From contig JADGKB010000151.1 of NCBI GenBank assembly GCA_027604185.1, positions 1-27,181 on the forward strand: a DNA stretch of 27,181 bases, read 5' to 3'. Position 1 is the first letter of the stretch. Each line of letters starts with the position of its first letter. The position numbers were made by a program, and so were the translations under genes. The DNA is from Boothiomyces macroporosus (taxonomy: Eukaryota > Chytridiomycota > Chytridiomycetes > Rhizophydiales > Terramycetaceae). Under the pieces are notes generated by a model. It had not been told where the DNA came from, ran no database searches, and saw only the letters and a program-made list of their open reading frames with translations. Positions 1,787 through 22,310 of the stretch are shown piece by piece.

Positions 1787-2080
1787 TTATTTCGAAGTTT
1801 TTACAACCGAAACAATAATGATGATTAGAATAACAGCAACAACACCACCAATAATCAACTTTAATTTCATATCTTTCCACCACATTTCTTTACGTACTTG
1901 ATTTGCCCCTCGCTTGAATTGCAATGAAGAGTTTTGTAAATCTTCGGTCTTGTTTTGTAAAGAATCGAGTTGTTCTCCTCTTTGCATTACTTTGTGGATA
2001 TTGCCTTGTTAGTGAATATTACCTTGCATTATTCCTACTACTTCATCGACTTCTTGTTGGACTTGGTTTGGTTTAGACAT
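1787..2080 (-). CDS. R-SNARE, synaptobrevin/VAMP (Snc-like)
   Basis: Two exons, 2080-2023 and 2004-1787, joined across an 18-nt intron at 2022-2005 (GTAATATTCACTAACAAG), give 91 residues. The protein has a very short N-terminus, an R-SNARE motif with the zero-layer arginine in KVMQRGEQL, the juxtamembrane signature KRGANQVRKEMWWKDMK, and one C-terminal transmembrane helix rich in Ile and Val (about residues 68-87). Such tail-anchored v-SNAREs drive fusion of secretory and endocytic vesicles with the plasma membrane. Without intron removal, exon 1 runs into a stop and the conserved DEVVGIMQ segment is lost, so the splice is well supported. Confidence 0.93.
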
Positions 2081-2161
2081 TTTTAGATTTGAAAGCTTTT
2101 TCTTATGTCATTCTGGTGGCTGAATGAACGTGAAGGAGTTTTATCTTGCTTTTGTGATTAG

Positions 2162-2340
2162 AGGTAGCTTTGGATCTACCATTATCAAGGGGTTCAAATA
2201 AGTGCAGATAGCTATGGATCTCCTACATCTAAAAAAGTATAATAAGGTTGTATCCTTAAATAAAGTTGGAATAGAAATAATAAGGTTGGAATAGAGTTAA
2301 AGCAAAATAACCAAAAATAGAGTTAAATAACCCAAAATAT
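2162..2340. repeat. AT-rich degenerate short repeats upstream of the SNARE gene
   Basis: The 285-bp gap between the SNARE and Mrt4 genes carries short imperfect repeats. AATAAGGTTG occurs at 2241-2250 and 2279-2288, GTTGGAATAGA at 2265-2275 and about 2286-2296, and AATAGAGTTAAA twice after about 2290. A short hairpin-capable stretch, GGTAG...CTACC, lies near 2163-2180. These look like slipped low-complexity repeats; no function can be assigned. Confidence 0.4.
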
Positions 2341-2365
2341 CCTAAACAACTTTAAAAATATAAAG

Positions 2366-3050
2366 TTATAATTCATTAAATCCAGCAGTTTTAGAGAACC
2401 AATGAGTCATTTTGATTTTGAATTCAGCCAACTGATGCCCAAAATGTTTGAGTAAATGAGCTTGTTCAGGAGTCAATACTTGGCCTTGCTGACAAATTAC
2501 ATGATCTTGTCTACATACCAGTACTCCTTTTTGTAGCTCAGTAGGCAACCCTAACTTTCTTAATTGTGGCTCCATATTGTTTGGTAAAGGCAGTCCATTC
2601 AATTCCAATGGGCCTTTTTTAATTTCTACTGTTTCTGTAGCAACATTTCCACCTCTGGCAAAGTCCTTTTCAACATACTCTTCAAAAAACCTACATTAAT
2701 AATAATTACTGTTCCAATTCTTGTTTATCAACATTAGTAAACAAGAGCCCAACTTCACCATTCAATTGCTCAGCAATATCTTTGATTCCAGGATAATACT
2801 CTTCTTCTGGCTTCAAACCTAGCGCTTTCTGCATCACTCTATTGGAACCGAAAAAGAATTTACTGGTTTTGAATTCATTACGGACCTGTTTGATGAATGT
2901 GTTTCTGTTATTTTCAATTTTCAAGACATAGACATTGTTGTATTCGTCCATTGCGTCTCTTACTTTTTGGAATAGAGTCTCTTTGCCTTGGCGGCCTTTT
3001 TTATCTGTTTTTGTGAGGTTGACGACTTTGTTTCTTTTTGATTTTGGCAT
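2366..3050 (-). CDS. MRT4: ribosome assembly factor Mrt4 (60S biogenesis, P0 paralogue)
   Basis: Exons 3050-2710 and 2690-2366 join across a 19-nt intron (2709-2691, GTAATTATTATTAATGTAG) into 221 residues. The start MPKSKRNKVVNLTKTDKKG, the GLLFTN segment, the post-intron EKDFARGGN motif and the C-terminal MEPQLRKLGLPT...LTPEQAxLLKxFG block are all Mrt4 signatures. Mrt4 is a paralogue of stalk protein P0; it occupies the P0 site on pre-60S particles in the nucleolus and is exchanged for P0 late in maturation. There is no acidic C-terminal stalk tail, as expected for Mrt4. A long A-rich tract precedes the ATG on the coding strand, as is common for ribosome-biogenesis genes. The 7TM gene lies 93 bp upstream on the same strand. 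Confidence 0.94.
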
Positions 3051-3143
3051 TAGGTTTTTATTTTTTGTTTTTTTTTCTTTTTTTTTGTGTGGCTTGGAAA
3101 AAGTTTCTTGAAAAAATCTGGTGCTAAATTCAAATGTTATATA

Positions 3144-4649
3144 TTACAGGCGAACAGTTTCTTTTTCTTGTACAGTGTTGGATTTAGAACTATAGACAGT
3201 CATGTCAAGGAGCATCTTTGGCTTTTCTCTTGGTTCAATCTGTGGTTCAACCAATTCTCTGGTATGGAATTTCAAGAATTCATACAAGGCGATAACAGTC
3301 AAACAATGCGCTTCAATCATAAATGTCTGTGTTCCTGAAGTGCCGATTATATCCCTGTCATTATTGATAAACAGTTGGGTATCTATCACGTAGGAGGTAA
3401 AGCCATACAAGGAAGCAATTAACAGCTGAACAAACAAGAGGATTAGCAAGAATCTGAATTTGTATCCGATTGTTAGTTTTGAAACATCTTCCTTTTGGTA
3501 TTTAAGCACATGTTGCCGGAATAGAATCGTCAGTAAAATAACGATTGGAATCGCATCAAAAATCAACACAAATGTAATGTATCCATTCCGTAAAGTAATT
3601 GCATACTGGATATACTCCAAATAAATCAAGTTGGACTCTGCAGTATAGTAATTGAGAATGACAGTCGTGTAGTAGTACAATCCATTCATTACCACAAATA
3701 GTAGTGTCAAGAATGAATACCCTAAATATATAATCCATTTTGAATTGATATTTAGGATCTTGAACAAGAATGATCCCGATAGCAGAGTGCAAAAGAGATT
3801 GTAAACCACCAGAATATTGCCACCAATATCAACGATACTAGCGAGTAAAACATTGTCTTGTGTAAAAACAGTATATATGTAAATCATTGCAAAGATATCC
3901 CTGAACAGTGCCAATACTTGAGTAAGGACTATTAGTAAAGCGCGTAATTGTCTAGTTTTGTAGAATGACCATAGATAGTACAAGAATGAAGTAAAGCAGA
4001 ATATCAGTGACAAAATATAGCCAACCAGCCCTAGTGCTTCAATTGGGTTTTGGTGTTTTGGAACCAGTAACAATCCAGGCATATAAGTTGTCCACTGAAC
4101 GGCATTCTGTCCATTTACAACAGTGATATAGGACATTGATACATTGCCCAAGTACCCCGCCTGTGCAACAATCTCAGTTTGATTCAAGGTGGCAGAAAAA
4201 GCAAGATTAGAGCATTTCGAGTCATTGTAAACAGAGACTTTTCCATTTTTACACTTTACTTGGTCTATACATTGGGAGCTGTCCAAATAATATGCGATAT
4301 TCCAGTCTGTACTTGCACTATTGTTGGTTTGTATCATACAGTAGCTGTTACCATTCGCACTAAGCGGAGGCGAGTTTGCCAAATCCCAGTTGTTGCCAAG
4401 AAAGTTATCCATTGAACTCATATAGTTACCGTAATCGAGGAGATCAAGGGATACTATGCAACAACCAGACCCAGAAGGATCTGGATTATCAAAGTACCCA
4501 CAAGTCCCTTGTTCAAACAGAGTAAACATTAGATTGCTGTTATTCGTTGCTGAAAACACGTACATTACATCTGGGGGGTTTGTACATTCTGTTGTCTTCC
4601 ACAGTGATTGGAATATCAAAGAAGTCATGAAAATAAAGGGTGACGACAT
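3144..4649 (-). CDS. seven-transmembrane receptor-like protein with Cys-rich ectodomain
   Basis: A 501-residue intronless protein. An N-terminal signal peptide (hydrophobic residues about 4-18) precedes an extracellular region of roughly 185 residues with about ten cysteines and several N-glycosylation sequons (NxS/T). Seven hydrophobic helices then follow, roughly at residues 205-232, 237-263, 269-298, 303-330, 355-383, 395-420 and 435-460. The C-terminal tail is about 45 residues and rich in charged residues. The topology fits a G-protein-coupled-receptor-like or other sensory membrane protein, but I see no class-defining motif (no DRY, no NPxxY), so ligand and coupling are unknown. The ATG at 4649 is chosen because it starts the signal peptide; the next ATG, seven codons later, would also work. 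Confidence 0.75.
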   Translation of the reverse strand: MSSPFIFMTSLIFQSLWKTTECTNPPDVMYVFSATNNSNLMFTLFEQGTCGYFDNPDPSGSGCCIVSLDLLDYGNYMSSMDNFLGNNWDLANSPPLSANGNSYCMIQTNNSASTDWNIAYYLDSSQCIDQVKCKNGKVSVYNDSKCSNLAFSATLNQTEIVAQAGYLGNVSMSYITVVNGQNAVQWTTYMPGLLLVPKHQNPIEALGLVGYILSLIFCFTSFLYYLWSFYKTRQLRALLIVLTQVLALFRDIFAMIYIYTVFTQDNVLLASIVDIGGNILVVYNLFCTLLSGSFLFKILNINSKWIIYLGYSFLTLLFVVMNGLYYYTTVILNYYTAESNLIYLEYIQYAITLRNGYITFVLIFDAIPIVILLTILFRQHVLKYQKEDVSKLTIGYKFRFLLILLFVQLLIASLYGFTSYVIDTQLFINNDRDIIGTSGTQTFMIEAHCLTVIALYEFLKFHTRELVEPQIEPREKPKMLLDMTVYSSKSNTVQEKETVRL

Positions 4650-4685
4650 TGTAATTGTATTCCCTGTCTCCAGACCGTGCTTTTT

Positions 4686-4694
4686 GGTTATAAA
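4686..4694 (-). promoter_or_regulatory. TATA-like element before the 7TM gene
   Basis: On the minus strand the sequence CTTTATAACC places a TATA-like core about 38-45 bp upstream of the ATG at 4649. This spacing implies a very short 5' leader if it is used. It is a short motif in AT-rich DNA, so support is weak. Confidence 0.3.
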
Positions 4695-4898
4695 GTGATA
4701 GCTGTGGCTAATTGAAAGAATCTATTGACAGGCTGACTAACACTCTATGAATGGCGGAAAAGTAATAGAGTATACTTGAATATCCAACAAGAATAAAAAG
4801 TAGTTTATTTCACCAACCTGAAGCCTTTCTATTCCAACCAAGACAATCCACCAAATACAAAACAAATCGTTATATTCAATCATACACTATTACAGAAA

Positions 4899-5318
4899 TT
4901 ACCAACAGCAGAATATCTTTGTCTTTTTCTTTTCATAAAATGAATGAACAGATTGGACAATTGAAGTTTGGGTTTCCTTTCGTTGGACATAACCTTCGCT
5001 CTTCAACTCTTTAAGCGATGTGATATTTCCATACTGGCTGTAGTGTCTTGAAGGTACTCTTATAGCATCGCTAAACAAAGTCCCAACTTCGCTAATTTCT
5101 AATTGCTCTTCATTCATAAAACACTTTTCTTGCTCTTTTAATTCAGAATCCGTAAAAGTATAATCAAGCGGCGGATCGATATCCTCTATTGTAACTATTG
5201 TTGGTGGGGTAATAAGTTCTGGGGCGATGGCAGTCAGTTTGGATTGTGAAAAGAATGATCCTAGCGTATTCCTATTTGATATTCCTGGAGAGCAGTCTTG
5301 CGGAGAGCTTTCTTGCAT
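4899..5318 (-). CDS. small protein of unknown function
   Basis: A 139-residue intronless frame opening with ATG at 5318. It is mostly hydrophilic and predicted disordered, with a Pro/Ile/Thr-rich stretch (about residues 33-52), an acidic middle part and a Lys-rich end that finishes in KTKIFCCW. The two cysteines next to the C-terminus follow a basic patch; that could be a lipidation site, but it is not a canonical CaaX box. I do not recognise a family. The reading frame is free of stops, and the next gene (5805) diverges from it across a long intergenic region, which supports a real gene. Confidence 0.55.
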   Translation of the reverse strand: MQESSPQDCSPGISNRNTLGSFFSQSKLTAIAPELITPPTIVTIEDIDPPLDYTFTDSELKEQEKCFMNEEQLEISEVGTLFSDAIRVPSRHYSQYGNITSLKELKSEGYVQRKETQTSIVQSVHSFYEKKKTKIFCCW

Positions 5319-5804
5319 TTATTTTTTTTGGAAAGTTGTTGGAGCTTCTTTGGGCATTGACACCAACACTTTCGGCCACCGCTTAAGGTTAAATGCTTAG
5401 AGTGAATACAAACCAAGGGCTTTGTGCTATGTGTTTATGCAATAGTGATATAACGGAGAAGCTTTACGCTGTTTAACGATTTGGATCATCAATCCGTCCA
5501 CATTAGCTCGTAATGAATGAACCTGATCATGTTACCACTTAATCGACTAGCGATTGTTGAATGTACTTGATCTTGTTACTGGTGAATGATCAAGTGGTGT
5601 TTTTGAAATTGATCTCATTAGAGTAACCATAAGATGGATCTCTGCAGTTGATTTCCAAAATGAACACTAGCTCATTCAGTAATTCAGTGGGAATAGCAAA
5701 TTCACAATATCAGTCGCGGCAATGAAGCACCAGGTCATTCGAGTAGAGAAGTCAACCTAGATTGAATTCATATGAGGGATCGAGTCTTTTTTTATATTTT
5801 TTTG
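5319..5804. other. divergent intergenic region with repeated TGATCxTGTTAC
   Basis: No gene is seen in this 486-bp region between two divergent genes. It has two copies of TGATCxTGTTAC, at 5524-5535 and 5568-5579 (44 bp apart), and an inverted pair, ACCACTTAATC at 5535-5545 and GATCAAGTGGT at 5588-5598 (10 of 11 bases complementary). These could be transcription-factor sites shared by both genes, or chance. A T-rich run lies at 5786-5802 just before the downstream start. Confidence 0.35.
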
Positions 5805-7238
5805 ATGAACTCGGAAGGTTCTGGCAACGTAGAAAACGGAAATGGTCATGTAGACAGTGAAGGAGACGCTTGGACTACCGACCAGGAATCAATTGATTCA
5901 GAAACCAACTCTGTTTCCGAAGACGAAATTTCTATCCAAGAATCTACCCAAACGGATGACTTGTTTTCAGTCGAGGACGACTACGAATTCTTTGATGTTG
6001 ATCAGCACTTGGGATTGATGAGTGATAATTATAATCCCAAAGAAAGGTTTGTTCAGTTCAGAAAGGACTATTTGGAATTCTTGAAAAAGAAACAGCAAGA
6101 ATATGATATTCCCGTTGAAACTCTATACCGGTTCAATGAAGACTTTGAAGAACTGAAGCATGGTGTGGATTTGGAAATTATTGAATTCACCAATCCTGAA
6201 AATACAGAGTTCTTGGCATCTGTGTTGATGGAACTAGACAACCTGGATATCCTGGTATTTGAAAGAGATTCCATTCTTAATCGCCATGTTTCAATTCTTG
6301 GCGAAGCGGTAAAATCAAAAAACTTTCATGAATTGACATTTTCAAAATTCACTCCACCAACTGACAACTTTTTCCAGCTATTCTCTGAATCAAAAATACA
6401 ATTTGCTCGTATCGACACAGACTGTTTGACAAAGGCTCAATTGTTGGATTTTATCAGTATCATCCCACAAATCACTGCTCTGGAATTTTTATCTTATCAC
6501 GCTGAATTCAACGATCTAGTTCGCATACCTTCCACTGTCGAAAAACTATATTTTGAAGGAGTTGAAGACAATGAAATAGGAAGTATCTTTGCCGCATTGG
6601 GTCCGCTCAAAGTTTTATCATTCAAGGATGCATCTTTATTAGAAACAGACTGGAAAAAGCTCAGTACGTATTTGCTGAATACTGACTGTGGACTGTTTTC
6701 ATTTGATTCGCATTCCATTACTGCACCTCTGGTATTTAAAGACATTTTAAAATCAATTAGATGCTCTCATTTGGAATTGTTTTTTAAAGAGTTGCCATAT
6801 CTCCCGTCGCTTAAATACAATATGAATATCGAACAACTTGCATTCTCATTCAACTCTACCTCTGAAGAACATGTTGCTGAACTGATAAAAACTTCAAGAT
6901 CACTGTTACATCTCAATATTTATGGCTTGCCACATGGGAACCTGGATGATGTGATTAAGAATAGCCGATTAAACACATTCAAGATAGATGGTAGATATGT
7001 ATACCACGATAAATTTGTAGAAAACGCTTCAAAAAGAGATCAAGGCCTTCGTGATGTCTTCCTGGCAAGCAAAACCATCCAACTGCTAAATTTCCCCAAT
7101 GAAATCAGGAACATGATTTTCCATATCATCATGCTCCAAGGTGGAGTTGGGGCACGGTCGCTATCAAGGTTGTCTAAAAATCTGTTTCGCGGTAAACAAT
7201 TTGAAGGTGAATTTAACTTGGAGACGTTACTAAAATAA
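5805..7238 (+). CDS. large acidic protein of unknown function, possibly LRR-like
   Basis: An intronless 477-residue protein from the ATG at 5805. An ATG 33 bp upstream at 5772 is in frame but adds a hydrophobic RVFFYIFL stretch encoded in a T-rich run, so I prefer 5805. Residues 1-75 are acidic, Ser/Glu/Asp-rich and probably disordered. The rest alternates short helices and strands with recurring leucine spacing (for example LEIIEFTNPE, ALEFLSYH, LKVLSFKDA, LLHLNIYGL), reminiscent of degenerate leucine-rich repeats in F-box/LRR proteins. Near the C-terminus, LNFPNEIRNMIFHI resembles the first helices of an F-box but sits at the wrong end of the protein. I cannot name a family. Confidence 0.7.
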   Translation: MNSEGSGNVENGNGHVDSEGDAWTTDQESIDSETNSVSEDEISIQESTQTDDLFSVEDDYEFFDVDQHLGLMSDNYNPKERFVQFRKDYLEFLKKKQQEYDIPVETLYRFNEDFEELKHGVDLEIIEFTNPENTEFLASVLMELDNLDILVFERDSILNRHVSILGEAVKSKNFHELTFSKFTPPTDNFFQLFSESKIQFARIDTDCLTKAQLLDFISIIPQITALEFLSYHAEFNDLVRIPSTVEKLYFEGVEDNEIGSIFAALGPLKVLSFKDASLLETDWKKLSTYLLNTDCGLFSFDSHSITAPLVFKDILKSIRCSHLELFFKELPYLPSLKYNMNIEQLAFSFNSTSEEHVAELIKTSRSLLHLNIYGLPHGNLDDVIKNSRLNTFKIDGRYVYHDKFVENASKRDQGLRDVFLASKTIQLLNFPNEIRNMIFHIIMLQGGVGARSLSRLSKNLFRGKQFEGEFNLETLLK

Positions 7239-7980: not shown

Positions 7981-9020
7981 ATGACAAAGCTTACCGGAAT
8001 CACATATCAAGAACTGCGACAAACTGCTAATGATGCTGTCCCTCAAGATGCTCCAAAAGGCCAATTCTTTGATCAGGTAAACCAAGCTGTTCAACTGATG
8101 AATATTGTCCATCCACTAGAGTCATGGACTGCCAATTCCAGCTCCAAAGGAGTCCAGATTTCCAAATTATCCATTACCAACCTTGACCATCAGTTCTTTA
8201 GAGGTGATTTATTGGTAGAAAACAGATCCCTTTATGAATTCTTGTCTGCATTAACTACTATGGGTGTCAGAGGTAACTGGGACGGAAGATATGATGGCGG
8301 CAAGATGCTCAAGCGTATTTCCAACTCTGCTACGTTGGTTTTATCAGCACAAAAGGGCCAAATGTTTGTCGCTGGAAGAGAATTCGCCACTGTAAACCAT
8401 GTTCAGTACGTTGACGAAAACACTGTTGATTTGATTATTACCTCAGTTGAAGATGAAATTATTCCTCCGGTCGCCAGAGGAAAAGTCAGAGGTCATATTT
8501 TGCTCAATGGATGGAGAATTGAAAAGAAGGGCGATAACTTGCAGGTAGCTTATATCTGCCATGTCGATCCTAAGGGCATCCCAGTTGGTAATCTATCGCT
8601 AATCAAGCAATCTTTTCAATGGTTCAAGGTGAAACTGCAATGCAAGTTCTTTCAGTCGCAGACTACTTCAAGAAACACAGTGCCCAACCAGTTATCTTGA
8701 AACACCCAGAATATGCTCTTGGTGCAGATGTAGTATTAAAAGCTCACGATATGGGCACTGAAAAGAAAGTTGTATTGGAATACTCTGTATCAGAAAGCCA
8801 AGAAGCAAAGAAGGGCCGTGTTTGCTTGGCTCTTCCATCTACCTTTAAATCTGGATTCGAAATCAAGGCAAATGCTTGCGTCAGAGCAGCGTTAATCCCA
8901 GATAACGATTTATGGAAGAATATGAAAGCAGTTGAAATCTGGGTCGAGTCTGCTCCTGTTGATATTGTTGTTGAAATAACACCTGCCAAAGAGTTTCTCT
9001 TGAATGGAAATAAACTCTAA
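7981..9020 (+). CDS. START-domain lipid-binding protein with extra C-terminal domain
   Basis: Exons 7981-8587 and 8608-9020 join across a 20-nt intron (GTAATCTATCGCTAATCAAG, 8588-8607) to give 339 residues. The first ~220 residues look like a START (StAR-related lipid transfer) domain: WTANSSSKGVQISKL, the central FLSALTTMGVRGNWDGRYDGGK region, and VAYICHVDPKGIPVAIFSMV, whose last part is created by the splice. START domains bind sterols, phospholipids or ceramide in a deep pocket. Residues ~225-339 form a second, strand-rich region that I do not recognise. No signal peptide or membrane segment is seen, so it is probably cytosolic. It converges on allantoicase. Confidence 0.8.
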
Positions 9021-9157
9021 TTTTGTATCAGTATTATCTTTTACCTCCTAGTGAGATATGTATTGCCTGAATTGCAAGAAAGAGATTGGTGGGATCCACA
9101 AGATTACGAATCATCAAACTCTTTGGAGTACAAATTTATATTGATAATCAATGGCTT

Positions 9158-10261
9158 TTATAGTTTTGAATTTAAAGAAAACCAATCACCAAACACTCTT
9201 AATCTACTGATCCCGCCATCCGGGTACATGGTCAAGCGAATATAGGAAACATTAGAATTAGGCTCAACTTTGAATTCATGCTCGGCATGCGCTGTTAGCT
9301 TTACTCTCTTTAGTAATGGCTTCCATTGTTGAGAGTCTGTTGAGCATTCAATCATGCAGCTTTCAGGGTAGTTGCCCTTGTAGTGGTTAGTGTCCACAAT
9401 AACTTTTTTGATTGTTGCTTCATGTCCAAGCTTGATAATAGCCCAGTCTTTACCAACCATTTCAATCATTCCGTCGTTTCCAAGTTTGAACACTGGTGGA
9501 CGGTTGGGGTTTCTTGCAGTTTCCCATCCGTCGTGCATACCAGTGGAACGCGCAGTTGCTAATAGCCTCATTGGATTGCCGTAATGTGCATTTGACCACT
9601 TGATTGCCTTACCTCCGTATTGCAAACTGGCTACATCTATAATTTGTTTGGGCATTTTAGACCAATCAGGTAGCACTGTTCCATATACTCGTAATCTTGC
9701 TATTCCACCATCCGGATAAAGCTGTGTTAATCAATAATTACATTTAATCTCAAGTGAGTCCATCTTTTTTGATTTTGGATCTCCACCAAAGTATGTCTGG
9801 TTTCTGGGACACCAGGAGATAGTTTAGTTTGGCAAAGTGTAACCCAATCCTTGGTCAAGTTTCCAATCCTTTCAATTTCTTCTTTAGGTGCAGCAGATCC
9901 TCTTTTACTGACTCTCTTTAAATCCAATTCTCCGCAATAAGCTTGAATAGAGCAGCCAGGAACGTTATCTACATTAACAGTATTTACTCCCAGTAAACCA
10001 AGCAGTATCGATATCAAACCCTTTGATTTGACCAGGAAGTCCAAGCTGAATGATACACCAGTCGTGGCCAAGGGTTCGCTTCCTTCTGGTTTCCCACCCA
10101 TCCATTTCCTTTCCTTCAGGCGTATAAGTATTTGGATCCCAAACAGGCTCTTGGGGAGCAATAAGATTTTCACAAACAGCAAAGAAATCATCGGTGGCAA
10201 ACAAGATTCTTCCGCCATTATCAGCGCAGGCCAAGTCGGGATATTCTGCAGGATTAAACAT
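9158..10261 (-). CDS. allantoicase (allantoate amidinohydrolase)
   Basis: Three exons, 10261-9988, 9968-9742 and 9721-9158, separated by introns of 19 nt (9987-9969) and 20 nt (9741-9722), give 354 residues, the usual length for the family. The protein shows the internal duplication typical of allantoicase. GGRILFATDDFFA and DGWETRRKR...DWCIIQLG in the first half are mirrored by GGKAIKWSNAHYG and DGWETARNP...DWAIIKLG in the second. The enzyme hydrolyses allantoate to ureidoglycolate and urea in purine degradation. The ATG at 10261 starts two dozen residues before the first conserved block. It diverges from 5-hydroxyisourate hydrolase, an earlier step of the same pathway, across 69 bp. Confidence 0.94.
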
Positions 10262-10330
10262 AAAGATTTTTCTGTTTGGTTCCTTTTAAATTGCGGCGAG
10301 TCAGGGGAACTCCGTGCCCGCATTTTTTTG
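10262..10330. promoter_or_regulatory. 69-bp shared promoter of two uricolytic genes
   Basis: The whole region between the divergent start codons of allantoicase (10261) and 5-hydroxyisourate hydrolase (10331) is 69 bp, so both genes very likely share control elements. It contains TGACTC on the minus strand (bZIP/Gcn4-like core) directly next to AGGGG (stress-response-element-like), in the stretch GAGTCAGGGGAA, and a T7 run just before 10331. There is no GATAA motif, the usual nitrogen-catabolite site in yeasts. The factor assignments are inference from short motifs. Confidence 0.55.
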
Positions 10331-10734
10331 ATGGAAAGGCTTGCGAATATTGCAAATCACTTAATGAAGTCGCACATTACCACACACGTATTGGATACCA
10401 GCAACGGAGTCGCTGCTGAAAATGTTTCAATCTCGCTGTATCGGTTCGATACAGAGTGGCAGCTACAGGGTAGTGGAAAGACAAACAGCGATGGAAGAAT
10501 TCAAACTTTGCTGTTGGAAAACGGTCAACCAAAACCACTTCAGAAAGGACTGTACAAGCTGACATTTGATATTAAAGGGTACTATGCCAAGTACAATGTG
10601 GAACCGTTCTTTCCAATGGCAGAGGTAGAATATAGCTAAAGTAGGTTGTATTCCAAGTAAGCGACCTTGATCGCCATTACCACGTTCCTCTGGTGATCAC
10701 TCCATTTGCATACAACACCTATCGCGGGACTTGA
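10331..10734 (+). CDS. 5-hydroxyisourate hydrolase (transthyretin-like) with PTS2
   Basis: Exons 10331-10624 and 10645-10734 join across a 20-nt intron (GTAGAATATAGCTAAAGTAG) into 127 residues. The family marks are THVLDTSNG, SLYRFD, GSGKTNSDGRI, the splice-created AEVVFQV, HYHVPL and the C-terminal YRGT (consensus Y-R-G-S/T), which is part of the active site. It hydrolyses 5-hydroxyisourate from urate oxidase to OHCU, on the way to allantoin. The start at 10331 gives MERLANIANHLMK, where RLANIANHL fits the peroxisomal PTS2 consensus (R-L-x5-H-L), so the enzyme is predicted to be peroxisomal. Without the splice the last conserved strand and the catalytic tail would be missing. Confidence 0.95.
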
Positions 10735-10745
10735 ATATTTTTGTA

Positions 10746-11880
10746 ATGAGAATAGAATCTCTAGGAAATAAAAACCTTGATGACTTGCCCTTTGAAATAC
10801 AATTAAAGATTTTCCAGTTGCTGGATTTCAAGTCCTTTTTGCAATTAATCAAGACAAGCCAGTATTACCATCAATTCAAATACAATAGTAGAGTATGGAA
10901 GTATTTCAGTTTTTGTCGTTACAATACCACAGGAGACTATGAGTACTTTAAGAATAGATTCCTCAGCAACTTGAATTTCTTTAGAGAGCGGTATATGGTG
11001 GCCACTCTTCCATTCCATTCTGATATAGTACTGGCGGTACACTGCATTGGTCAAATTGGATACAGCGGAGGTAGAGATGGAACATGTGCAGTATTTAACA
11101 TCAAAACTGCGACATTGATCAAGCAATTCAAAGCGCACAAGTTTGGGCTGTCTTGCTTTGAACAGTGCAATTCTGATCTAGTTACCGCTGGATGGGATGG
11201 GAAAGCCATCATATGGACAATCAATCTGCAAACGGATCAGATTCAAAGTAGAGTATTCAATAATCAGCAGCCAGTGATTTGTGTAAAGATACACGGGAAT
11301 AAAATGGCTTGTGGGTTGGAAAATGGAGTTCGTATATGGGACTTTGATGATAATAGTTTTACAGAAATGGATACTGGACTAGTAACTTGTATAGATTATT
11401 CCAACGAATTTGTCTATGGCAAAAGCAATATGATCAAAGACGTGAAGAATGAGTATTATTTTAATGCAAAGGTAATTAGTAATAAGACAGGTAAATGGAA
11501 ATACAACTAGGTGTCTGCAATGAAAATTAAAGACAGAATTCATGTCGGGACTGAAGGTATTTTAAATTAACAAGATGGCTATTTGCATATACTTACCTAC
11601 GATTTTCAAGTTCTGATGGCCATTCAAATGCATTCAGATGGAATCAGAAATATTAGCATCAATCATAATATTGTCACAGCTAGCTACGACCAAACTATTG
11701 GTATCTATAACCAAAGAAAAACGTTGTGGAAAGGACATAAAGGAGACGTGAATGGTGTTTACTGTGGAGATACTTTTGTTTTGTCTTGTTCAGGTAAGAG
11801 GTACTAATGCAGATGATCAAACAGTAAAGATATGGAATTGCTCTGAAAGCGATTTATCAAACAACAACCTTTTCTCATAG
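10746..11880 (+). CDS. F-box/WD40-repeat protein
   Basis: Four exons: 10746-11471, 11511-11556, 11575-11793 and 11813-11880. The introns are 39 nt (see separate entry), 18 nt (GTATTTTAAATTAACAAG) and 19 nt (GTAAGAGGTACTAATGCAG). The product is 352 residues. An F-box at about residues 10-55 (LDDLPFEIQLKIFQLL...VWKYF) is followed by about six or seven WD40 blades (for example SGGRDGTCAVFN, TAGWDGKAIIWT, TASYDQTIGIYN, and the splice-built SCSDDQTVKIWN). Such proteins act as substrate receptors of SCF ubiquitin ligases; the substrate is unknown. The ATG lies only 11 bp after the stop of the preceding gene on the same strand. The C-terminus ends soon after the last blade. Confidence 0.9.
11472..11510 (+). 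other. 39-nt intron made of two abutting minimal introns
   Basis: The conserved frame needs exactly 39 nt removed between ...FNAK and VSAMKIKD.... The segment divides into GTAATTAGTAATAAGACAG (11472-11490, 19 nt) followed directly by GTAAATGGAAATACAACTAG (11491-11510, 20 nt). Each half alone has the form of an intron of this genome. Removing either half alone leads to a premature stop. It could be one longer intron, or two introns with a zero-length exon between them and a recursive AG|GT junction. Confidence 0.7.
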
Positions 11881-12498: not shown

Positions 12499-12954
12499 AT
12501 GGAAGCTCTGTCAGCACAGCAACTAGAGGATTACAAAGCAGCATTTGAATTATTCGATAGGGATATGGATGGAACCATCACTTCTAAAGAAATGGCAACA
12601 GCTTTGCGTCACCTTGGGCAGAATCCAACCGAAGCAGAGCTGCAGGAGCTGTTGGCTGAATTAGACCAAGATGGAAACGGAACGATAGAATTCGAAGAAT
12701 TAATGGCATTAATAGTGAAAAATGAAGGAAATGCCCAGCAAGATATCGACACTGAAATTAAGGAAATATTCACACTTCTAGATCGGGACAACTCTGGCTT
12801 TATATCCATACAAGATCTGAAAGCAGTCGCGATTAGTAGCGGAATGAAACTCTCAGAGACGGAGATCGAGAACATGATTCTCGAGGCAGATAACGACGGG
12901 GACGGACAAATATCGTTGGAAGAGTTTTATGAAATAGTGGTAAGCATTAACTAA
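12499..12954 (+). CDS. calmodulin-like protein with four EF hands
   Basis: A 151-residue intronless protein with four EF-hand loops at residues 20-31 (DRDMDGTITSKE), 56-67 (DQDGNGTIEFEE), 95-106 (DRDNSGFISIQD) and 131-142 (DNDGDGQISLEE). The layout and length match calmodulin and troponin C, but the sequence diverges from canonical calmodulin; for instance it has VAISSGMKLSETEIENM where calmodulin has a highly conserved helix. The third loop ends in Asp instead of the usual Glu at position 12, which normally weakens Ca2+ affinity or shifts it towards Mg2+. It is probably a specialised Ca2+ sensor or myosin light-chain-like protein, not the main calmodulin. Confidence 0.9.
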   Translation: MEALSAQQLEDYKAAFELFDRDMDGTITSKEMATALRHLGQNPTEAELQELLAELDQDGNGTIEFEELMALIVKNEGNAQQDIDTEIKEIFTLLDRDNSGFISIQDLKAVAISSGMKLSETEIENMILEADNDGDGQISLEEFYEIVVSIN

Positions 12955-13073
12955 TTAGAAACCGGCACTGATGGGCGGAGGAGAAACAGAAGGCGATGAT
13001 GATGTTGCTGACGATGATATCGTGGAACGACCAGCTCGAAATTGAAAATAAAAAAGTTTTCGCATCTGGTAAT

Positions 13074-14474
13074 ATGTCTACAATTAATTTCCTAATTGGA
13101 GTATCAGTAGCTTTAACTTCATCCTGCTTATCCTCACTTGGCGTAAACCTACAAGCATCTGCGCTTCAGAAAGAACGATTGCTAAACACGTTATCGGAGC
13201 AGGATCCAGCCATTTTCGATGAGGAATGGTCTGAATCAGAGATATTACCGGAACAATCAGAGCCAGAAGAAATCACAGTGCGAACATTCTTTGCAATGCT
13301 ATTTTCGAATTCGCGACGGAATGAAGAGAGCTGGAAAAGGCTTTGGTTCAAGACACAGTGGTATCTTGGCTTTGGCATGGTAATTCATATTAATTCAGTA
13401 CCTATTTTGTCAAATGTTTGGGTCAGTGATAGCTCTTGGTTTCATATCTCCAATGATTTTCGCGCCTTTTGGATCAATTGGATTGATATTCAATATCTTA
13501 TTCTCCTCAGTATTTCTAGGAACCCGAATTACTTTTCATGACATGTTGGGGACAGGGTTGATTGTTGTCGGATGTGCAGTTGTTTCTACATTTGGAACAA
13601 TGATACCAGAAACTAGACAGAACGTGGACGATTTGATTAAAATGTTTACAAAGCCGGCTGTGATTGCCTACTTTTCCGTTCAAGTATTTGTTGTCTTGCT
13701 TCTCGCGTTTCTGATCAAATACCTAGAGTACAATCTCAATTCGTTAAAGGATGCACTTATACATCGTACAGTGTCAAGGAGGAGCAGTCAAAGATCTTAT
13801 TCGGCCGATGGATCTGGAAGATTTTCAGGAACAAGATCTAGACCACCAATATTGGAATTCATTGATCCAGCCGTTCCAATTACTCCCTTGGTTGACTCGC
13901 CAATGGAAGAAAGAATTCCTAGAACTGTATCAGTAGGCTCGTTGGTTCGTTTTTCAGAAAATGTTGTAATAGATTCCGAAACGTTGCCACTACTTCGCAC
14001 CAGTACTACAATGTCAATACGATCAACAAAACGCAAGAATATGAGTGCGCTGGTAGGTGTGTTGTATGCGATTGCAGGAGGAATGATTGCTTCTGATACG
14101 CTGACATTGACAAAAAGCGGGTATGGGGAAAATTAACAATAGAGTAGAAATATTGATTACATCCCTCTTTGATTCAACCAACCAGTTTCATGGGCTGTTT
14201 TCCCTGATTCTGCTTGTCTTGTTAATAATCACGGCTGTACTTCAAGTAATTTTTTACTTACTAGGTATACTCGTTAAACTCTGCTTTGAAATATGAGCTG
14301 CCAGTGATAATTCTGCCAATCTTCTTTACCTTGTTTACCGTTCTATCACTCGCAAACACCATGGTTTGTATCGATGCATTTTCAGTCGTAGATCCGCTGG
14401 CAATATTGAGTTTGTGCGGCGGAATGTGCTTGATTATTGGCGGCGTTTATCTACTAACGAAAAGTGGAAACTAG
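13074..14474 (+). CDS. NIPA-type magnesium transporter
   Basis: Four exons, 13074-13379, 13399-14120, 14143-14245 and 14265-14474, with introns of 19, 22 and 19 nt, give 446 residues. Signature parts of the NIPA/DMT-fold Mg2+ transporter family are MFGSVIALGFISPMIFAPFGSIGLIFN, DMLGTGLIVVGC, GGMIASDTLTLTKS-VEILI and the final helices SALKYELPVIILPIFFTLFT and LCGGMCLIIGGVYLL. About nine membrane helices are expected. Two loops are unusually long: about 70 acidic residues after helix 1 (Glu/Ser-rich, residues ~35-95), and about 100 Ser/Arg-rich residues around 215-320 that look like a regulatory phosphorylation region. I place the start at 13074, where the first helix begins as in relatives; a longer start at 12996 lacks similarity. 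Confidence 0.88.
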
Positions 14475-14520
14475 TGTAAATATAATCTTGTGTACTTTTG
14501 TTAGAATGAATGAATCTAGT

Positions 14521-15633: not shown

Positions 15634-16057
15634 CTGTAAAGCTACCCCACACCTGGCTATTTATACCATTGAGGAACGAGTAAAGTGATGGAACACAGAC
15701 AACATGCTTATTCAGTTTGACTGGGGTAAGAACGCGTGGTTACGATTTCCTTTTTAATACCTATATCGGGCCAAGAAAAAGATGCTCACGGATAATTGAA
15801 ATACTAAAATCGTAGGTGTGCGCAACAACTCTATTGAGATGAACATAAGTTTGGCAATCTTATCAATCGTTCTGATTCCTAGCCCAAGATATGTATTGGG
15901 AAAAGTACATCAGCAGAGTAATAGATTCACATGATTAGGTAGCACCTGCATTAAATTACCCCACTCAAACCTTTAAAGAGAAATTCTTTGTAAATTGACT
16001 GCAACACCAACTAAAACAACGCACTTTAAATATCCAAGCATTCTATTTGGCCTTTTA
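15634..16057. other. intergenic region between protease start and GT61-like gene end
   Basis: Apart from the protease TATA box near its left edge, I see no coding frame, RNA gene or clear repeat in these 424 bp. The right part is the 3' flank of the GT61-like gene. Confidence 0.5.
15657..15665 (-). promoter_or_regulatory. TATA box of the aspartic protease gene
   Basis: On the minus strand the sequence reads GGTATAAATAGCC, a near-perfect TATA box. It ends only 24 bp before the start codon at 15633. With the usual 25-30 bp from TATA to transcription start, the 5' leader would be almost absent. Confidence 0.6.
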
Positions 16058-18656
16058 TTAAAACAAATCCATTTCCATTATAGCTTTATGAATCATGTAC
16101 TCTAGTCTATCAGGGTCGATTTTCACAGAAAAAGACTCTCGATAATCTGCAGCGTTTTCATAATCAGGTACCATATCCTTGTTTGGATTCTGAATTTGGT
16201 AGTACTGCTTGCTCAAGTATGGAAATAGATTCCAGAATGCTATTTCTCTGCTTGCGCTTTCACTGAATTAGAAAAGTATACCTTGGATTGTATTGGTATT
16301 CTTCTTGACCGTCACCGTAATAGTCCATAACTATGATTTGACTCTTTTTTGGCATGAAGGGAATCAGCATTGAGTTTGATCCGCTAGGAGTAACAAGAAT
16401 TGAAAACTGCGACAGTTTTGACAGCATTTCCTTGATTGATAATTGTGTTGGGTCTATTGTGTCAATCTTCAAATTTGGAAACCTTTTCTTCATTTCCATC
16501 AAAATTTCATCAATATTGTAGATTTCATGTTTCTTTTTTGGATCTTTGGGTTTGGATTTTACAAAGAGTATTCCATGCTGCGCAGGGAGGGGTGAGTCTG
16601 CGTCTAGACCATGTGTCTCGTATACCCTTCTCCTAAACTGCTCCCAAATAACTTCTTTTCCTTCATTAAATTCATTTTGGTAGCTGACAAATGCCCGATT
16701 AGCACTGGCAACAATCAACTCTTTAAAACAGATGTATCTCTTTCCATTAGCTATCTTCTTGAAATGGCTTTCCATCCCTTTGATTGGTTTCGTTGAAATT
16801 GCTTTTCCGTAACCCTCAACTAGCTGTTTGTACAACTTGTCATCAATATCACCTCTCCTAATGTTAACATTGATTACATATTCAACAACTGGGTGTCGTT
16901 ATCACGAATTCCAAATCTTTTTAAAGTGATGAAAGCTGCACCTAGCTCTTCAAAAACTAGGTTCCCAGAGGAATAGTCATCACCTAAATGAGCCCATAGC
17001 ACAGTCTTTTCATCATAAAATACACTTTGATTTCGATTTAATTCACCAATAACCACTTTTGGAGTGAAATACGTCATGTTTGAAACATTCTTGAATGCAT
17101 TCAATTCAATAAAGGGATTTCCAAATTCATAAATCGGTCCTTGTACTCTATCATAGAACACTGGTTCTTTTAAAGGTTGATAATATTCAAATTCCCTTTC
17201 TTTTGTGTCATAGCAGATCTTTTCAAAGTAGCACGACCTTCTCGATGTTTGTTCAAATACATTTTGCTTCCCCAAACACTTGTATATAGATCTATAGTGT
17301 TGATTCTTTTCTCTATAGTCCTTGTTGATTTGTTCAACTTGCTGTAGGAATGGCTTGTATTTGTCGTTGATTGAAATAGCAAATGAACATACATGATCGA
17401 CTTGATCAGCTAGTGATTGAGCCATATTAGGAATAGGGATAGAAGAGTTGTAAGTCTGGAATGCATTAATCATAGAGTCAATAAATCTATCTAATCCCTT
17501 TGCTTCAACAACAATGTTTTTCTGATTAAAGACTGTCAAATGCATTATCCAAGTGTTATCGTATCCAACAACTAACCCACCAGCAGTAATATTTCTTGCC
17601 TTTGTATTTTCATACGCAGCTTGAGCACTAGCAAACCCAAAAAATGGCTCTGAAATTAGCTTTCCGTCAAATATAATTCTTTCGGAAACATATATATAAT
17701 CCAGGTTGGAATTTAAAATAACCAGTCTTGGAGTGTATGCTGGATAGCCATCTGAGCACATAGATTGCAGATTAATTAGTCCAATAAAGTAAGTTTTATA
17801 TTTCACCATTGGAGACCCAGCAGTGATTCTGGAATCAGAGAAATCCCTTATTCGTGCTTTGACACAGCTTTTTCCGTTACAGTCAATTGAAACAACTGGG
17901 TGCCACGTATATATATAGTTTAATTTGTTTTGGATGTTGTAGAATGGTGCCAAGTTAGTAATCGTAGTATTTTTCTCTAGCAAATTATTAATCTTCTTTA
18001 GTTGCTGTGAAGTAGTATTGAATGACCATACAAAAGTGTCATTTCCTGATTTGATGTCAAATGAAAGTAAAACATTGCCATAGGGATCCAGAATTGATTT
18101 TGGCTCTCCTATCAATGCGTTATTTTTGGTTATTTCAACCAGTTGCGGATATTTTTGGCCCTTGTAAGCGAACTTTGTTTTTTCAAAATGGAAATCAAGC
18201 GCATGTGCATATATCATTGAATACGAGTGCTCCATACATTTTAATTCAGCTACTTTGTTTTGAAATGGAGCTTTGCACTCTTTGGCATTTTTGTACGGAA
18301 CTACTGTTTGAAATTGGATATATCCAACCGGGGTATATACGATAGAACCGCCTGTTACTCCAAAATGATCGCTCACTGCAGGGGCAAAAGCAGTAGAGTC
18401 AAAATCAATTTCCTTGAATACCGGAGTGATATAATTGGCCAATTTTTCTTTCCAATACGACTGCGTAATATTAATCAAGTCTGTCCTAGTAATTGAATCG
18501 TCTACATTAATTGATATTACTGTGAATAGAAGTCGTAGCTTTTGCCAGTTGAATTGCATGTGCATTTTCATAGTTTTGCCGCACTATTAACCATAAAATA
18601 ATTACTAGCCAAAATATCAACACTGAAACGACCACTCGCTGTCTGAACCGTCGCAT
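16058..18656 (-). CDS. type II membrane protein with C-terminal GT61-like glycosyltransferase domain
   Basis: Exons 18656-18521, 18501-16878, 16857-16282 and 16262-16058, with introns of 19, 20 and 19 nt, give 846 residues. Residues 1-25 are MRRFRQ plus one transmembrane helix (VVVSVLIFWLVIILWLIV), so most of the protein should be lumenal in the Golgi or ER. Residues ~45-585 form a large region with many cysteines and NxS/T sequons that I do not recognise. Residues ~600-800 resemble GT61 (EOGT/xylosyltransferase-type): ...ILFVKSKP, EIYNIDEILMEMKKRF, LSQFSILVTPSGSNSMLIPFMP. The usual GxHGAxLTN motif appears as TPSGSNSM (743-750) without the His. Longer starts at 18707 or 18767 are possible, but a CCAAT box at 18708-18712 favours 18656. 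Confidence 0.75.
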
Positions 18657-18707
18657 TAGCAGTGAAATAAAGGCCAAGGTGGGATGTGGATGTGGTTGTG
18701 ACATTTG

Positions 18708-18712
18708 ATTGG
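18708..18712 (-). promoter_or_regulatory. CCAAT box of the GT61-like gene
   Basis: The minus strand reads CAGCCAATCA, the preferred context of the NF-Y/HAP complex, about 52 bp upstream of the chosen ATG at 18656. Its position directly before the alternative ATG at 18707 argues against that longer start. Confidence 0.4.
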
Positions 18713-19330
18713 CTGAAAAAAATTGCGACAATATTGATAGTGAGCCCTTGAACTGGTGAATATTCACTGGACTGCTTATATTTATGTTTGCAATTGGGGA
18801 ATCATCTGGTATTTGACTGAATCGTATCTACTGACTTTCTGATTTTGTCAAAGTGAATGCTGGGAAATTAATACTGTGGTCATGCATTGTTAACTTTTGA
18901 AGATATTCCACATACACTTTGCGTTCGATTTGGGATAGAGACCAGCTCCTCAAGTCAGAAAATTAAAAACATCATTTTTTTACCCAACTCAAATTGCCCA
19001 AAAATGCACATAATAGAAAATACAGATATTCAACCTCGGTAAATCAACTAGACGGTAAGGATTGATAGTGAGTGATTAAGTGTCCACGATAAATGATAAT
19101 GATCTATAAGTTTTCAAATCCCGAATTCGGGTATCCAAGTTTCCAACCGTCTTTGTAAAATGCCACAAACCAGACAATTTGAATAGATACTTTCTGTCAC
19201 ACTAGTGTGTCACTAGAAGTGAGATGGAGATCACATCTGGAACAATATTGATACAACTTTTGTGACAGTGTTCTGTGGCGTGTTTCATGACAAATATTTT
19301 TATGAAGCAAGACGTGAAAATTTCTCTACA
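18713..19330. other. divergent intergenic region between GT61-like and epimerase-GT genes
   Basis: About 620 bp without a supported gene. A perfect 12-bp palindrome, CACACTAGTGTG, lies at 19198-19209, about 120 bp before the epimerase-GT start, and is flanked by TGTCAC copies on both sides (TGTCACACTAG and TGTGTCACTAG). It may be a dimeric-factor site shared by the two divergent genes. Nothing else is recognised. Confidence 0.35.
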
Positions 19331-22310
19331 ATGGCAGCTGTTCCTGCAAAACGCTTAAAAATTCTAGTGTTCCTCCTAGTGGTTTTCCCAACTATTCTTT
19401 ACTTGTTGATTTTTCGAGGAGAACTGGAGCCAGTGAACACTAGTGTGCAACCTGTTGCAAACAACAACATTTATTTTTCCAAAACACTCGATAGTAAAAT
19501 TAGGTCAAAGCCAAATGCGATGAAAGTGATGACTATTATTGGTACCAGACCAGAAACAATCAAGATGTTCCCTATTATCAAGGAATTGGAAAAAGTAATT
19601 ATTGTTAACCCCAGCGACACAACGTTGTTTCGATTGTACTAGCTAGTGGCCAGCATCAACAGATGGTTGCTCCACTGTTGGAAACATTTTCCATCAAGGA
19701 GGACATTAACTTGAATGTGATGGTTGCCAATCAGAAGCTAACAGATTTATCTGCAAGGTATTTGCTTAATAACCAAGATTGATTATTGGTATAAGTCAAG
19801 CTATTGCCGAAACTAAGCCTGATTGGGTGTTGGTTCAAGGTGATACAACCACCGCCTTTGTTGCTTCACTAATTGCTTTTTATCACAAGATTCCAGTCGG
19901 TCATGTTGAAGCGGGTTTGCGTACTTATAACAGATACAATCCGTTCCCTGAAGAAATCAATAGAAGGGTTATTGGGTCATTAGGTTCAATTCACTTTGCT
20001 CCTACCCCGGAATCTTCCCAGCATTTAATTATGGAAGGAATCCCATTTCCACAGGTTCATATTACCGGAAACACCGTGATCGACGCATTATTATGGATGT
20101 CCAATCAGCCTCCAACTAAAAAAGCTCAAAGGTTGGAAGCAAAAATTTATGAAAATCATAGCAAAAGCAGCAAACCAAAGATTGTCCTTGTAACTGCTCA
20201 CAGAAGAGAAAACTGGGGCGAACCTTTGGAAAATATTTGCGGGGCTATTAAAAAGTTGGCTAGTACCCACTCTGAGGTTGTATTTGTTTTCCCAATGCAC
20301 TTGAACCCAAAAGTGCAAAGCGTTGCCAAAGGGCACTTGTCTGGAATGGCCAATGTGATTCTGTGGGACCCTCTTGATTACGATGTGTTTGCTTATTTGA
20401 TGAAATCAGTTTATCTTGTTATGACCGACTCTGGTGGTATTCAAGAAGAAGCTACTGCATTCTCAGTTCCAATATTGGTTCTCCGTGAAACTACTGAAAG
20501 GTAAATATTGATTGATGATAGACCTGAAGGTGTTAATGCTGGAATGGCAAAGTTGATTGGAACAAAGGAAGAAAATGTTGTTTATGAAGGAAACAGAATG
20601 CTGACTGACAAAGAGTACTACAACAAGTACGTAAAAGTAAACTCTCCGTATGGTGATGGAAAGGCTGCAATGAAAATTGTGGATATGGTCACTTCAAAAG
20701 AAGGTAATTGGATTATAACGATAGTTTTGGAACACGCTGAATCCGGTAGTATGATCACTGAAGTTCAAAAACATGCTTCAGAAATTCCAATGCCTCCATC
20801 GCCACCATTGAATCCAAAGAAGAGAACGCTTAAGGAATTAATGGAAATGAAATCAAACTTTCCTGAAAACGGAGATGGAAAAGGAGACAATGGTATCATT
20901 GCCATCATTTCTACATACAAGAGACCAAAGACTATTATCAGAATTGTTGAAGCTTGCTTGAATCAGTCTGTTCCTCCAAAGGAAGTCTGGATAACGGTGT
21001 TTTCTTCTCCATATGAAGGCGAATATCGTAAAATTATTGATGAATACAAATCCAAGAACTTGACTGATGTGCCAATTCACTTGATTACCGGTGGGCCTCA
21101 ATTCACTTACTTTGCAAGATTCCAAGTCGCTTTACTAGCGCCAACAAAGTACGTCGCTCTTTTGGATGACGACGTTATTCCAGAAGGTATTCATGCATTC
21201 CGAAATATGCTTCACACTTTTAACCTTCAATCAAACGAATATTATGGTATGTATGGTTGTAAAGGTCATGTTATCAATACTGAACAGTTGGAAAAAGAAC
21301 AGTCTGAATATTACTACAACTACTTTACTCATGAACCAAATACGATCGAAATGGCTGATGTTGTTGGTGGATTATGGTTTATGAAGAGAGAATGGGTAAA
21401 GTATATGTTCATTGAAGACCCAATCACTATCGCAACTGCTGAAGATTTCCAAATAACGTATTTTTTCAATAACTATAGTGCCATGCTTTTGAAATACGCC
21501 AACATCCCAACTTTCATATTCCCAGTTGACAAGGAAGACAAGACTTCGTATCTGCACTCTGCCGATTTCGAAGATATTTCAGAAGGAGAAAAGACTACTG
21601 GAAATGGTGGGAAAATGTACAATGGCAAAGAATGGGACCCTCACCACCTTCGTAACACTGTTGCTTGGTTCTTGCTAAACAGGGGTATGACAAGACCTTG
21701 GGCGCACCAAATGTATGACAGACATGATAACGTGTTGATGTTTGTAAAGGATACTGTTCAAGCTAACGCTCTTGCCAAATCCTATGATCAACTGAGAGCG
21801 AAAAAAGAAACTGCGAAGCATGAAGGCAAAATTATCAGACCTTGGGTAGCATTCGCTGGTTTGAAGACTCATACTGATGAACAAAATATTGAACACCTGA
21901 ATGAGATTCAAAAGATTTTCAACACCAATATTGACTGGAACTCGAATTTCCTTGGTTACTGGACTTTGGAATTGGGAAGATTAGACTTTGGGATGGACAA
22001 AGGGAAAGATTTAATGGCTAGGACCATGCAGGCTTTCCACCACTCCATTGTCAATACCCAGCCAATTGCCGTAGTTTTGACTACTGAAGGTATTGATGAA
22101 TCAACCGTTGGTGCTGGTTTAACAGCTGCAGACTATGGCTCACCAGTAATTGTGTTGGATACCAAGAGTAACACGGAATACAGCAGACACGAATCCAAGT
22201 GGAGAAAAGTCTTGTATGGAGTAGCAGATGTAGTTTTAGACGATGAAACTGAATTGATGGTATACTTGGATTCTATCAGAAGTGCTATGCATAGAAAAAC
22301 CATTGGATAA
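19331..22310 (+). CDS. membrane-anchored UDP-GlcNAc 2-epimerase (non-hydrolysing) fused to a GT2-like glycosyltransferase
   Basis: Exons 19331-19594, 19615-19757, 19778-20500 and 20522-22310, with introns of 20, 20 and 21 nt, give 972 residues. After a type II anchor (residues ~8-28), residues ~64-435 are a WecB/MnaA-type non-hydrolysing epimerase (UDP-GlcNAc to UDP-ManNAc). It shows GTRPE, QGDTTT, GHVEAGLRT, PEEINRR, VTAHRREN, TDSGGIQEEA and RETTERPEGVNAG, including the catalytic Asp, two Glu and His. Residues ~500-720 are GT2-like: IIAIISTYKRP, the metal-binding DDD at 592-594 and an ED pair at 684-685. Residues ~770-972 are an unassigned third region. A further 21-nt intron-like, stop-free segment at 20704-20724 may or may not be spliced (965 residues if so). 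The start is the first ATG before the anchor. Confidence 0.9.

Follow-up and report, generated by a model that had tools for sequence, protein, structure and literature searches.

How small can an ordinary spliceosomal intron become, and can introns of about 20 nucleotides (nt) be the norm in the nuclear genome of a fungus? The question is raised by a stretch of 27,181 nt (hereafter the window) from the chytrid Boothiomyces macroporosus (Terramycetaceae, Rhizophydiales, Chytridiomycota), which is contig 151 (JADGKB010000151.1) of a 15.2-Mb, 216-contig nuclear assembly (GCA_027604185.1). An earlier reading of this DNA (the original prediction) had placed seventeen introns in its genes, nearly all of them 18–22 nt long. 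Our best explanation, to which we assign a probability of roughly 85%, is that these are ordinary U2-type introns that have shrunk to near the smallest usable size, and that this is the normal state of the B. macroporosus nuclear genome. The U2-type assignment is based on GT...AG ends, a branch site complementary to U2, the presence of U1, U2, and U6 small nuclear RNAs (snRNAs), and the conserved proteins that are restored when the segments are removed.

The segments might instead be indels from sequencing or assembly, or GT...AG strings that arose by chance and stitch reading frames together. In favor of this is that the first listing was made by eye and from sequence rather than RNA, and that a trained gene finder makes some false calls. 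We assembled a sample of 227,181 bases from the window and twenty 10-kb stretches out of eleven contigs. A flat gene finder, which used codon statistics and a length prior that was flat from 8 to 400 nt, without any splice motif, was run on this sample with all 256 donor-acceptor dinucleotide pairs. With GT-AG it found 29 introns of 18–22 nt, against a mean of 3.1 (standard deviation, sd, 2.4; maximum 16) for the 255 other pairs. GT-AG ranks first among the 256, and the next-ranked pairs, TA-GG and GG-TA, are the same introns moved by one base. No GT-AG excess was found by this approach in the sample at 23–60 nt (11 versus 17.4, sd 4.1) or above 60 nt (46 versus 53.2, sd 4.7). When introns of 20, 60, 80, 120, and 200 nt were implanted, the flat model recovered 37, 31, 37, 33, and 40, respectively, each out of 311; recovery of ~12% that is even across lengths indicates low sensitivity and no length bias, so that longer introns could still make up a minority of perhaps as much as one in six.

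A trained gene finder, with motif and length learned, predicted 356 introns in 121 of the 160 gene models of the same sample. The original prediction had proposed the intron length distribution as a check, and the distribution bears it out: 311 of the 356 introns are 19–22 nt long (62 of 19, 134 of 20, 78 of 21, and 37 of 22 nt), and the others comprise 6 of 23–24 nt, 2 shorter than 18 nt, 7 of 25–30 nt, and 30 longer than 30 nt, some of the longer predictions being wrong. Once the predicted introns of 18–24 nt had been deleted and the finder rerun, it predicted none of that size, and it likewise predicted none of 18–24 nt in the reversed sample. With the motif kept and the length prior made flat from 12 to 400 nt, 184 of 310 and 145 of 247 predictions (at two weights) fell at 18–22 nt, nearly all of these at 19–22. 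Introns whose length is a multiple of three carry an in-frame stop in 65 of 80 cases, against a three-phase average of 66%; because the finder detects introns with a stop more readily, we do not take this as a sign of selection for stops.

Across the whole genome, the pattern GTAANTN{4,6}YTAAYN{1,2}YAG occurs 2,632 times, compared with 80 for the same pattern read backwards, a 33-fold difference. It has 45 hits within the sample, of which 42 are predicted introns; among the 317 introns predicted at 18–24 nt, it matches 42. Extrapolation suggests ~19,000 short introns genome-wide, or 21,000 by plain density, and this is probably too low because the trained finder misses introns, including those of 18 nt. 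The restriction of the excess to GT-AG among all dinucleotide pairs, the rarity of the mirror-image motif, and intron junctions common to public proteins of the species and of other strains (see below) make indels or chance strings extremely improbable. The view that these are real spliceosomal introns, with ultrashort ones as the norm in a fungus, is supported by sequence, homology, and the chance controls.

In the window, introns were taken from the trained gene finder and from three-frame translation of six regions, and each junction was graded by Pfam matches against curated cut-offs, with the spliced model compared to single exons. All seventeen introns of the original prediction were located, with the lengths that it gave (sixteen of 18–22 nt and one of 39 nt). 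It had spoken of eight genes; it listed nine names, and there are nine genes. The SNARE, Mrt4, START, and HIU hydrolase genes have one of these introns each, the allantoicase and GT61-like genes two each, and the F-box/WD40, NIPA, and epimerase-GT genes three each. We add three further introns, one of 19 nt in a centrin-like gene and two of 21 nt each in the epimerase-GT gene. The summed exons of the nine genes had been said to be divisible by three, and the spliced models of all nine, as well as that of the centrin-like gene, have a length that is a multiple of three and one terminal stop each. The further claim that every splice restores a family motif stands in part. For 11 of the 17 introns the junction lies within a Pfam match above cut-off (SNARE, Mrt4, both in allantoicase, HIU hydrolase, the third in F-box/WD40, the second and third in NIPA, and the three in epimerase-GT), and for 3 it lies within a sub-threshold match (the first in NIPA and the first and second in F-box/WD40). 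The remaining 3 junctions (START and the two in GT61-like) are outside any match and depend on the reading frame, since the START Pfam match is uninformative and the GT61-like introns flank the domain. The introns of the window are as follows, where P0122-P0127 denote the public B. macroporosus epimerase-GT protein and the proteins of five relatives:

2005..2022, minus strand: 18-nt intron of the R-SNARE gene (1787-2080); Synaptobrevin match of 116.7 bits spliced versus 84.4 when the larger exon is taken by itself; not among the gene finder's calls.
2691..2709, minus strand: 19-nt intron of the Mrt4 gene (2366-3050); found by the gene finder; Ribosomal_L10 63.9 versus 61.2 bits, with RL10P_insert gained downstream.
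8588..8607, plus strand: 20-nt intron of the START-domain gene (7981-9020); found by the gene finder; frame only, 45.7 versus 45.0 bits, the intron being just past the match.
9722..9741, minus strand: 20-nt intron of the allantoicase gene (9158-10261); found by the gene finder; Allantoicase 296.8 bits spliced versus 154.3 and 97.9 for single exons.
9969..9987, minus strand: 19-nt intron of the allantoicase gene; from three-frame translation; within the first allantoicase repeat.
10625..10644, plus strand: 20-nt intron of the HIU hydrolase gene (10331-10734); Transthyretin/HIUase 118.0 versus 71.2 bits; the C-terminal part of the family is restored.
11472..11510, plus strand: 39-nt intron of the F-box/WD40 gene (10746-11880); junction the same in the public proteins P0242 and P0243 (Terramyces); called as 19+20 by the finder.
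11557..11574, plus strand: 18-nt intron of the F-box/WD40 gene; from three-frame translation; within sub-threshold propeller matches; the public P0242 removes 36 nt (12 residues) more.
11794..11812, plus strand: 19-nt intron of the F-box/WD40 gene; junction at residue 330, inside the WD40 match 309-339.
12940..12958, plus strand: 19-nt intron of the centrin-like gene (12499-13045), new here; found by the gene finder; near the end of the fourth EF hand.
13380..13398, plus strand: 19-nt intron of the NIPA gene (13074-14474); found by the gene finder; within an EamA match of 28.0 bits (cut-off 28.2).
14121..14142, plus strand: 22-nt intron of the NIPA gene; junction at residue 342, inside the NIPA match 313-443; 68.0 bits versus 34.7 for one exon.
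14246..14264, plus strand: 19-nt intron of the NIPA gene; junction at residue 377, inside the NIPA match 313-443.
16263..16281, minus strand: 19-nt intron of the GT61-like gene (16058-18571); found by the gene finder; frame only, junction at residue 757, past the GT61 match 616-740.
16858..16877, minus strand: 20-nt intron of the GT61-like gene; found by the gene finder; frame only, junction at residue 565, ahead of the GT61 match.
19595..19614, plus strand: 20-nt intron of the epimerase-GT gene (19331-22310); within Epimerase_2, 367.3 versus 279.1 bits; junction the same in P0122-P0125 and P0127.
19758..19777, plus strand: 20-nt intron of the epimerase-GT gene; within Epimerase_2; junction the same in P0122-P0127.
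20501..20521, plus strand: 21-nt intron of the epimerase-GT gene; within Epimerase_2; junction the same in P0122-P0127.
20704..20724, plus strand: 21-nt stop-free intron of the epimerase-GT gene, new here; its seven residues are absent from P0122-P0126, and P0127 is unaligned there.
21458..21478, plus strand: 21-nt stop-free intron of the epimerase-GT gene, new here; its seven residues are absent from P0122-P0127.

Both added epimerase-GT introns keep the frame either way, being free of stops and multiples of three in length. The spliced epimerase-GT protein is 100% identical to the public B. macroporosus protein HK103_001797 over 93% of the query, and its junctions are common to the proteins of Terramyces JEL0728 and Boothiomyces JEL0866 and JEL0838 wherever these align. 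The splicing factor Prp8 of JEL0866 (P0002) has seven additional residues where B. macroporosus has intron 1; they are consistent with retention of a 21-nt intron, and their codons can spell CTAAC. Because of these junctions and residues, short introns are probably common to the family. Public gene models of the species already hold some of the introns, which means that annotation software has met them. The public F-box/WD40 protein P0242 (HK103_001792) is short of 12 residues next to the 18-nt intron and of 13 next to the 19-nt intron, and opens with MAEVVFQ, which is the spliced junction of the neighboring HIU hydrolase, so that two genes (10331-11880) seem to have been wrongly joined in the public model. 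Annotation tools built on the expectation of longer introns will misinterpret genes of this kind, as two public Boothiomyces proteins already show.

The introns of 19–22 nt share a simple anatomy: an AG-like exon end, with G as the last base before the intron in about half of them, a GTAATT/GTAAGT-like 5' site, a UACUAAC-like site, and a further 5–6 nt ending in YAG. In the 317 predicted introns of 18–24 nt, the A of the best-scoring candidate branch site mostly falls on nt 14 (114 introns), nt 15 (149), or nt 16 (30), and its distance to the last G is 5 nt in 133 and 6 nt in 142. The YTAAY is strong, with its A at a fixed place, and there is no room for a polypyrimidine tract. The original prediction had noted the branch element just before the AG and had asked how the spliceosome could fit. 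The close spacing stands, at 5–6 nt; as the puzzle it does not, since Stentor coeruleus likewise has its branch A 5 nt before the end of the intron (PMC9505925). What constrains the fit more tightly is the stretch of 13–14 nt ahead of the branch A.

The machinery that would have to remove these introns looks conventional in the parts that were examined (U1, U2, U6, Prp8, SF1, U2AF65, and Cwc25). Inspection of the U2 and U6 snRNAs had also been proposed as a check; both are present with canonical recognition sequences, and we added U1, which has a standard 5' end (E value 3e-16). U2 was found twice (142.2 and 135.4 bits), with the standard branch-recognition sequence GTGTAGTATC, and U6 (62.2 bits) carries ACAGAGA. 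The two U2 genes, on contigs C80 and C178, are nearly identical in the 5' half and clearly different in the middle and 3' half. We sought five splicing proteins or families, Prp8, Cwc25, Isy1, SF1, and U2AF65, and found all of them; in this 15.2-Mb genome we thus see no strong reduction of the genome or, among the five factors, of the spliceosome. The Prp8 gene has five introns of 19–22 nt itself, and its junctions agree with homologs at 5 of 5 sites in five other species and at 4 of 5 in the public JEL0866 protein. For the largest Prp8 exon (1,408 amino acids, aa), identity is 99% with Boothiomyces sp. JEL0866 and 86% with both Entophlyctis and Batrachochytrium. The alignment of SF1 with its human counterpart runs from the KRKTRW segment via the KH domain to a zinc knuckle. 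The U2AF65 gene has four introns of 19–20 nt and a first exon that is unsettled, and it keeps the RS-like segment and the C-terminal domain, which we take to be the contacts with SF1 and U2AF35.

One possibility is that the introns are real and that altered branching factors make room for a tight lariat. For Stentor, it has been conjectured that steric clashes are avoided through a divergent Cwc25 plug and Isy1 N-terminus (PMC9505925). The lariat loop here would be merely 14–15 nt, which suits such a reading, as does the state of Isy1 (L040:1381-2340), whose first exon is unsettled: the aligned part begins after the N-terminus, and no in-frame start could be joined to the first conserved residues. 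Cwc25, however, starts with MGGG and aligns from residue 1 with human CWC25, retaining the glycine plug that Stentor lacks, so a changed plug of the Stentor kind is not needed here; in addition, the alignment of Prp8 with proteins of other chytrids and a zygomycete is gap-free at all five junctions. We therefore regard altered factors as quite improbable. The Cwc25 gene and its flanks occur twice, identical over 3,111 bases (C49:2042-5152 and C100:3637-6747) near the ends of two contigs, as either an assembly duplicate or a recent copy.

Several observations weigh against ultrashort U2-type introns as the genomic norm, or at least against our account of them. The trained finder alone recovers 10 of the seventeen listed window introns, splitting the 39-nt one into two adjoining introns (19 and 20 nt), and the remaining 7 were supplied by three-frame translation. 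It predicts no 18-nt introns, although the window holds two, and among its 17 calls in the window at least 3, of 24, 41, and 195 nt, appear to be errors, those of 24 and 195 nt joining apparently separate genes; a 196-nt "intron" that it places in Prp8 is coding sequence in homologs, and hence a wrong call. Longer introns exist, such as one of 46 nt in Isy1 that is genuine by homology. At +5 of the 5' consensus, T is more frequent than G, which is weaker for pairing with both U1 and U6. The U1 candidate scores 68.8 bits, just below the family cut-off of 69.5, and no U5 snRNA was found by a genome search that matched nothing in control genomes either. Finally, we deduce splicing, branch nucleotide, and assembly order from DNA and protein homology, not RNA, which would also leave room for removal of the segments from the DNA itself, by programmed elimination as in ciliates. 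Against this, a 5' site, a U2-complementary branch site, and a YAG are present in the segments, and U1, U2, and U6 in the genome, and fungi are not known to eliminate DNA in this way; we give this idea almost no probability.

If the introns are ordinary U2-type introns, their removal may proceed as follows. U1 would pair with the 5' site, and SF1 and U2AF65, followed by U2, would take the branch site and acceptor. The 5' site would pass from U1 to the ACAGAGA box of U6 no later than the docking of U2, since ~15 nt can hardly hold both U1 and a fully loaded U2 small nuclear ribonucleoprotein. In the catalytic complex, the U6 helix (about nt 1–6) and the U2 branch helix (about nt 9–15) could fit with 2–3 nt between them. 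Branching would yield a loop of 14–15 nt with a tail of 5–6 nt, and the first YAG would be the acceptor used. The range of 19–22 nt may be so narrow because a geometric floor limits further shrinkage while deletion pressure works against greater length. Tentatively, and with the odds against it, we suggest that a conventional, unreduced spliceosome here assembles without the standard cross-intron A complex, that 5–6 nt is a general floor for the second step, and that the spacing from 5' site to branch is set by lineage. Without a cross-intron A complex, there would be either an obligatory early hand-over from U1 to U6 or exon definition.

The main alternative on the question of crowding is exon definition, in which the introns are real and recognized mainly across exons, so that U1 and U2 do not crowd each other on one short intron. 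The exons are modest in size (median ~205 nt in the gene models), and the U2AF65, SF1, and RS-like segment in U2AF65 that it would need are present. Exon lengths vary widely, however (5th–95th percentile ~33–998 nt), and short introns are generally held to be recognized across the intron, and we consider exon definition unlikely.

A few observations stand apart from this argument. The 39-nt introns of F-box/WD40 (11472-11510) and Isy1 (L040:1468-1506) resemble paired ultrashort introns (19+20 and 20+1+18, respectively). Raising the length prior for 25–150 nt in search of a double-intron class gave a single prediction of 35–44 nt and no peak, and that prediction is neither of these two introns. 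Intron birth by tandem duplication, an idea prompted by the resemblance of the SNARE intron to the following exon, was rejected; over 311 introns, identity to the flank was 0.375 downstream (0.371 shuffled) and 0.374 upstream (0.377 shuffled). The allantoicase and HIU hydrolase genes lie head to head, ~70 bp apart, forming a small purine-degradation pair (9158-10734). The epimerase-GT gene encodes a UDP-GlcNAc 2-epimerase fused to a glycosyltransferase-like half, and among the matches listed for it, those beyond Boothiomyces and Terramyces are a metagenomic protein, Naegleria, and mostly prokaryotic or unnamed proteins. Downstream of it are two similar intronless genes in tandem, of ~700 aa each (22512-24611 and 24705-26810), which no search here identified.

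Ultrashort introns as a fungal norm were the subject of no report that we found in the open-licence literature, searched mostly at the level of titles and abstracts. A fungal survey by Lim and others describes U2-type introns and intron-rich early-diverging lineages, gives Cryptococcus, with a mean of 63 bp, as a short example, and includes two Chytridiomycota in its reconstruction; the word Boothiomyces does not occur in its main text (PMC8476143). Where ultrashort introns are the norm, they have hitherto been explained by genome reduction or special splicing factors. In chlorarachniophyte nucleomorphs, which are relict endosymbiont nuclei, ~800 introns are 18–21 nt long (described in PMC10245619); our predicted 19–22 nt overlaps this range and is nearly the same, here in the main nuclear genome of a fungus. 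Mikrocytids have 224 introns of 16–17 nt, and are parasites with a reduced spliceosome of 17–19 proteins (PMC10245619). They share with B. macroporosus a very narrow length range and a conserved intron sequence, whereas here the introns number in the thousands and the factors sought form a conventional set. In Trichomonas vaginalis, canonical machinery removes short introns, as it would here, but its introns of 23–25 nt are a minority class (24 of type B) in an intron-poor genome (PMC12316389).

The closest parallel is with Stentor coeruleus, whose branch A is at nt 10 in introns of 15 nt and at nt 11 in those of 16 nt (PMC9505925). Both are free-living, in both ultrashort GT-AG introns are the genome norm, and both have conserved U2 and U6 recognition sequences and a branch A ~5 nt from the intron end (5–6 nt here). 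They differ in that the introns of B. macroporosus are 19–22 nt, with the A mostly at nt 14–15 and a strong YTAAY, whereas the Stentor introns have no strong branch consensus, and in that the Cwc25 glycine plug is kept here and reported missing in Stentor (PMC9505925). The spacing from branch to intron end is thus nearly shared, and that from 5' site to branch differs. The retained plug argues against its loss as a general requirement, and an intron-rich fungal genome with conventional-looking factors separates intron shrinkage from spliceosome reduction. With Prp8, SF1, U2AF65, and Cwc25 directly comparable to the yeast and human proteins of solved spliceosomes, what sets minimum intron length becomes directly testable. 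The introns of B. macroporosus are close to the smallest known anywhere, and may show the smallest intron that a normal spliceosome can handle.

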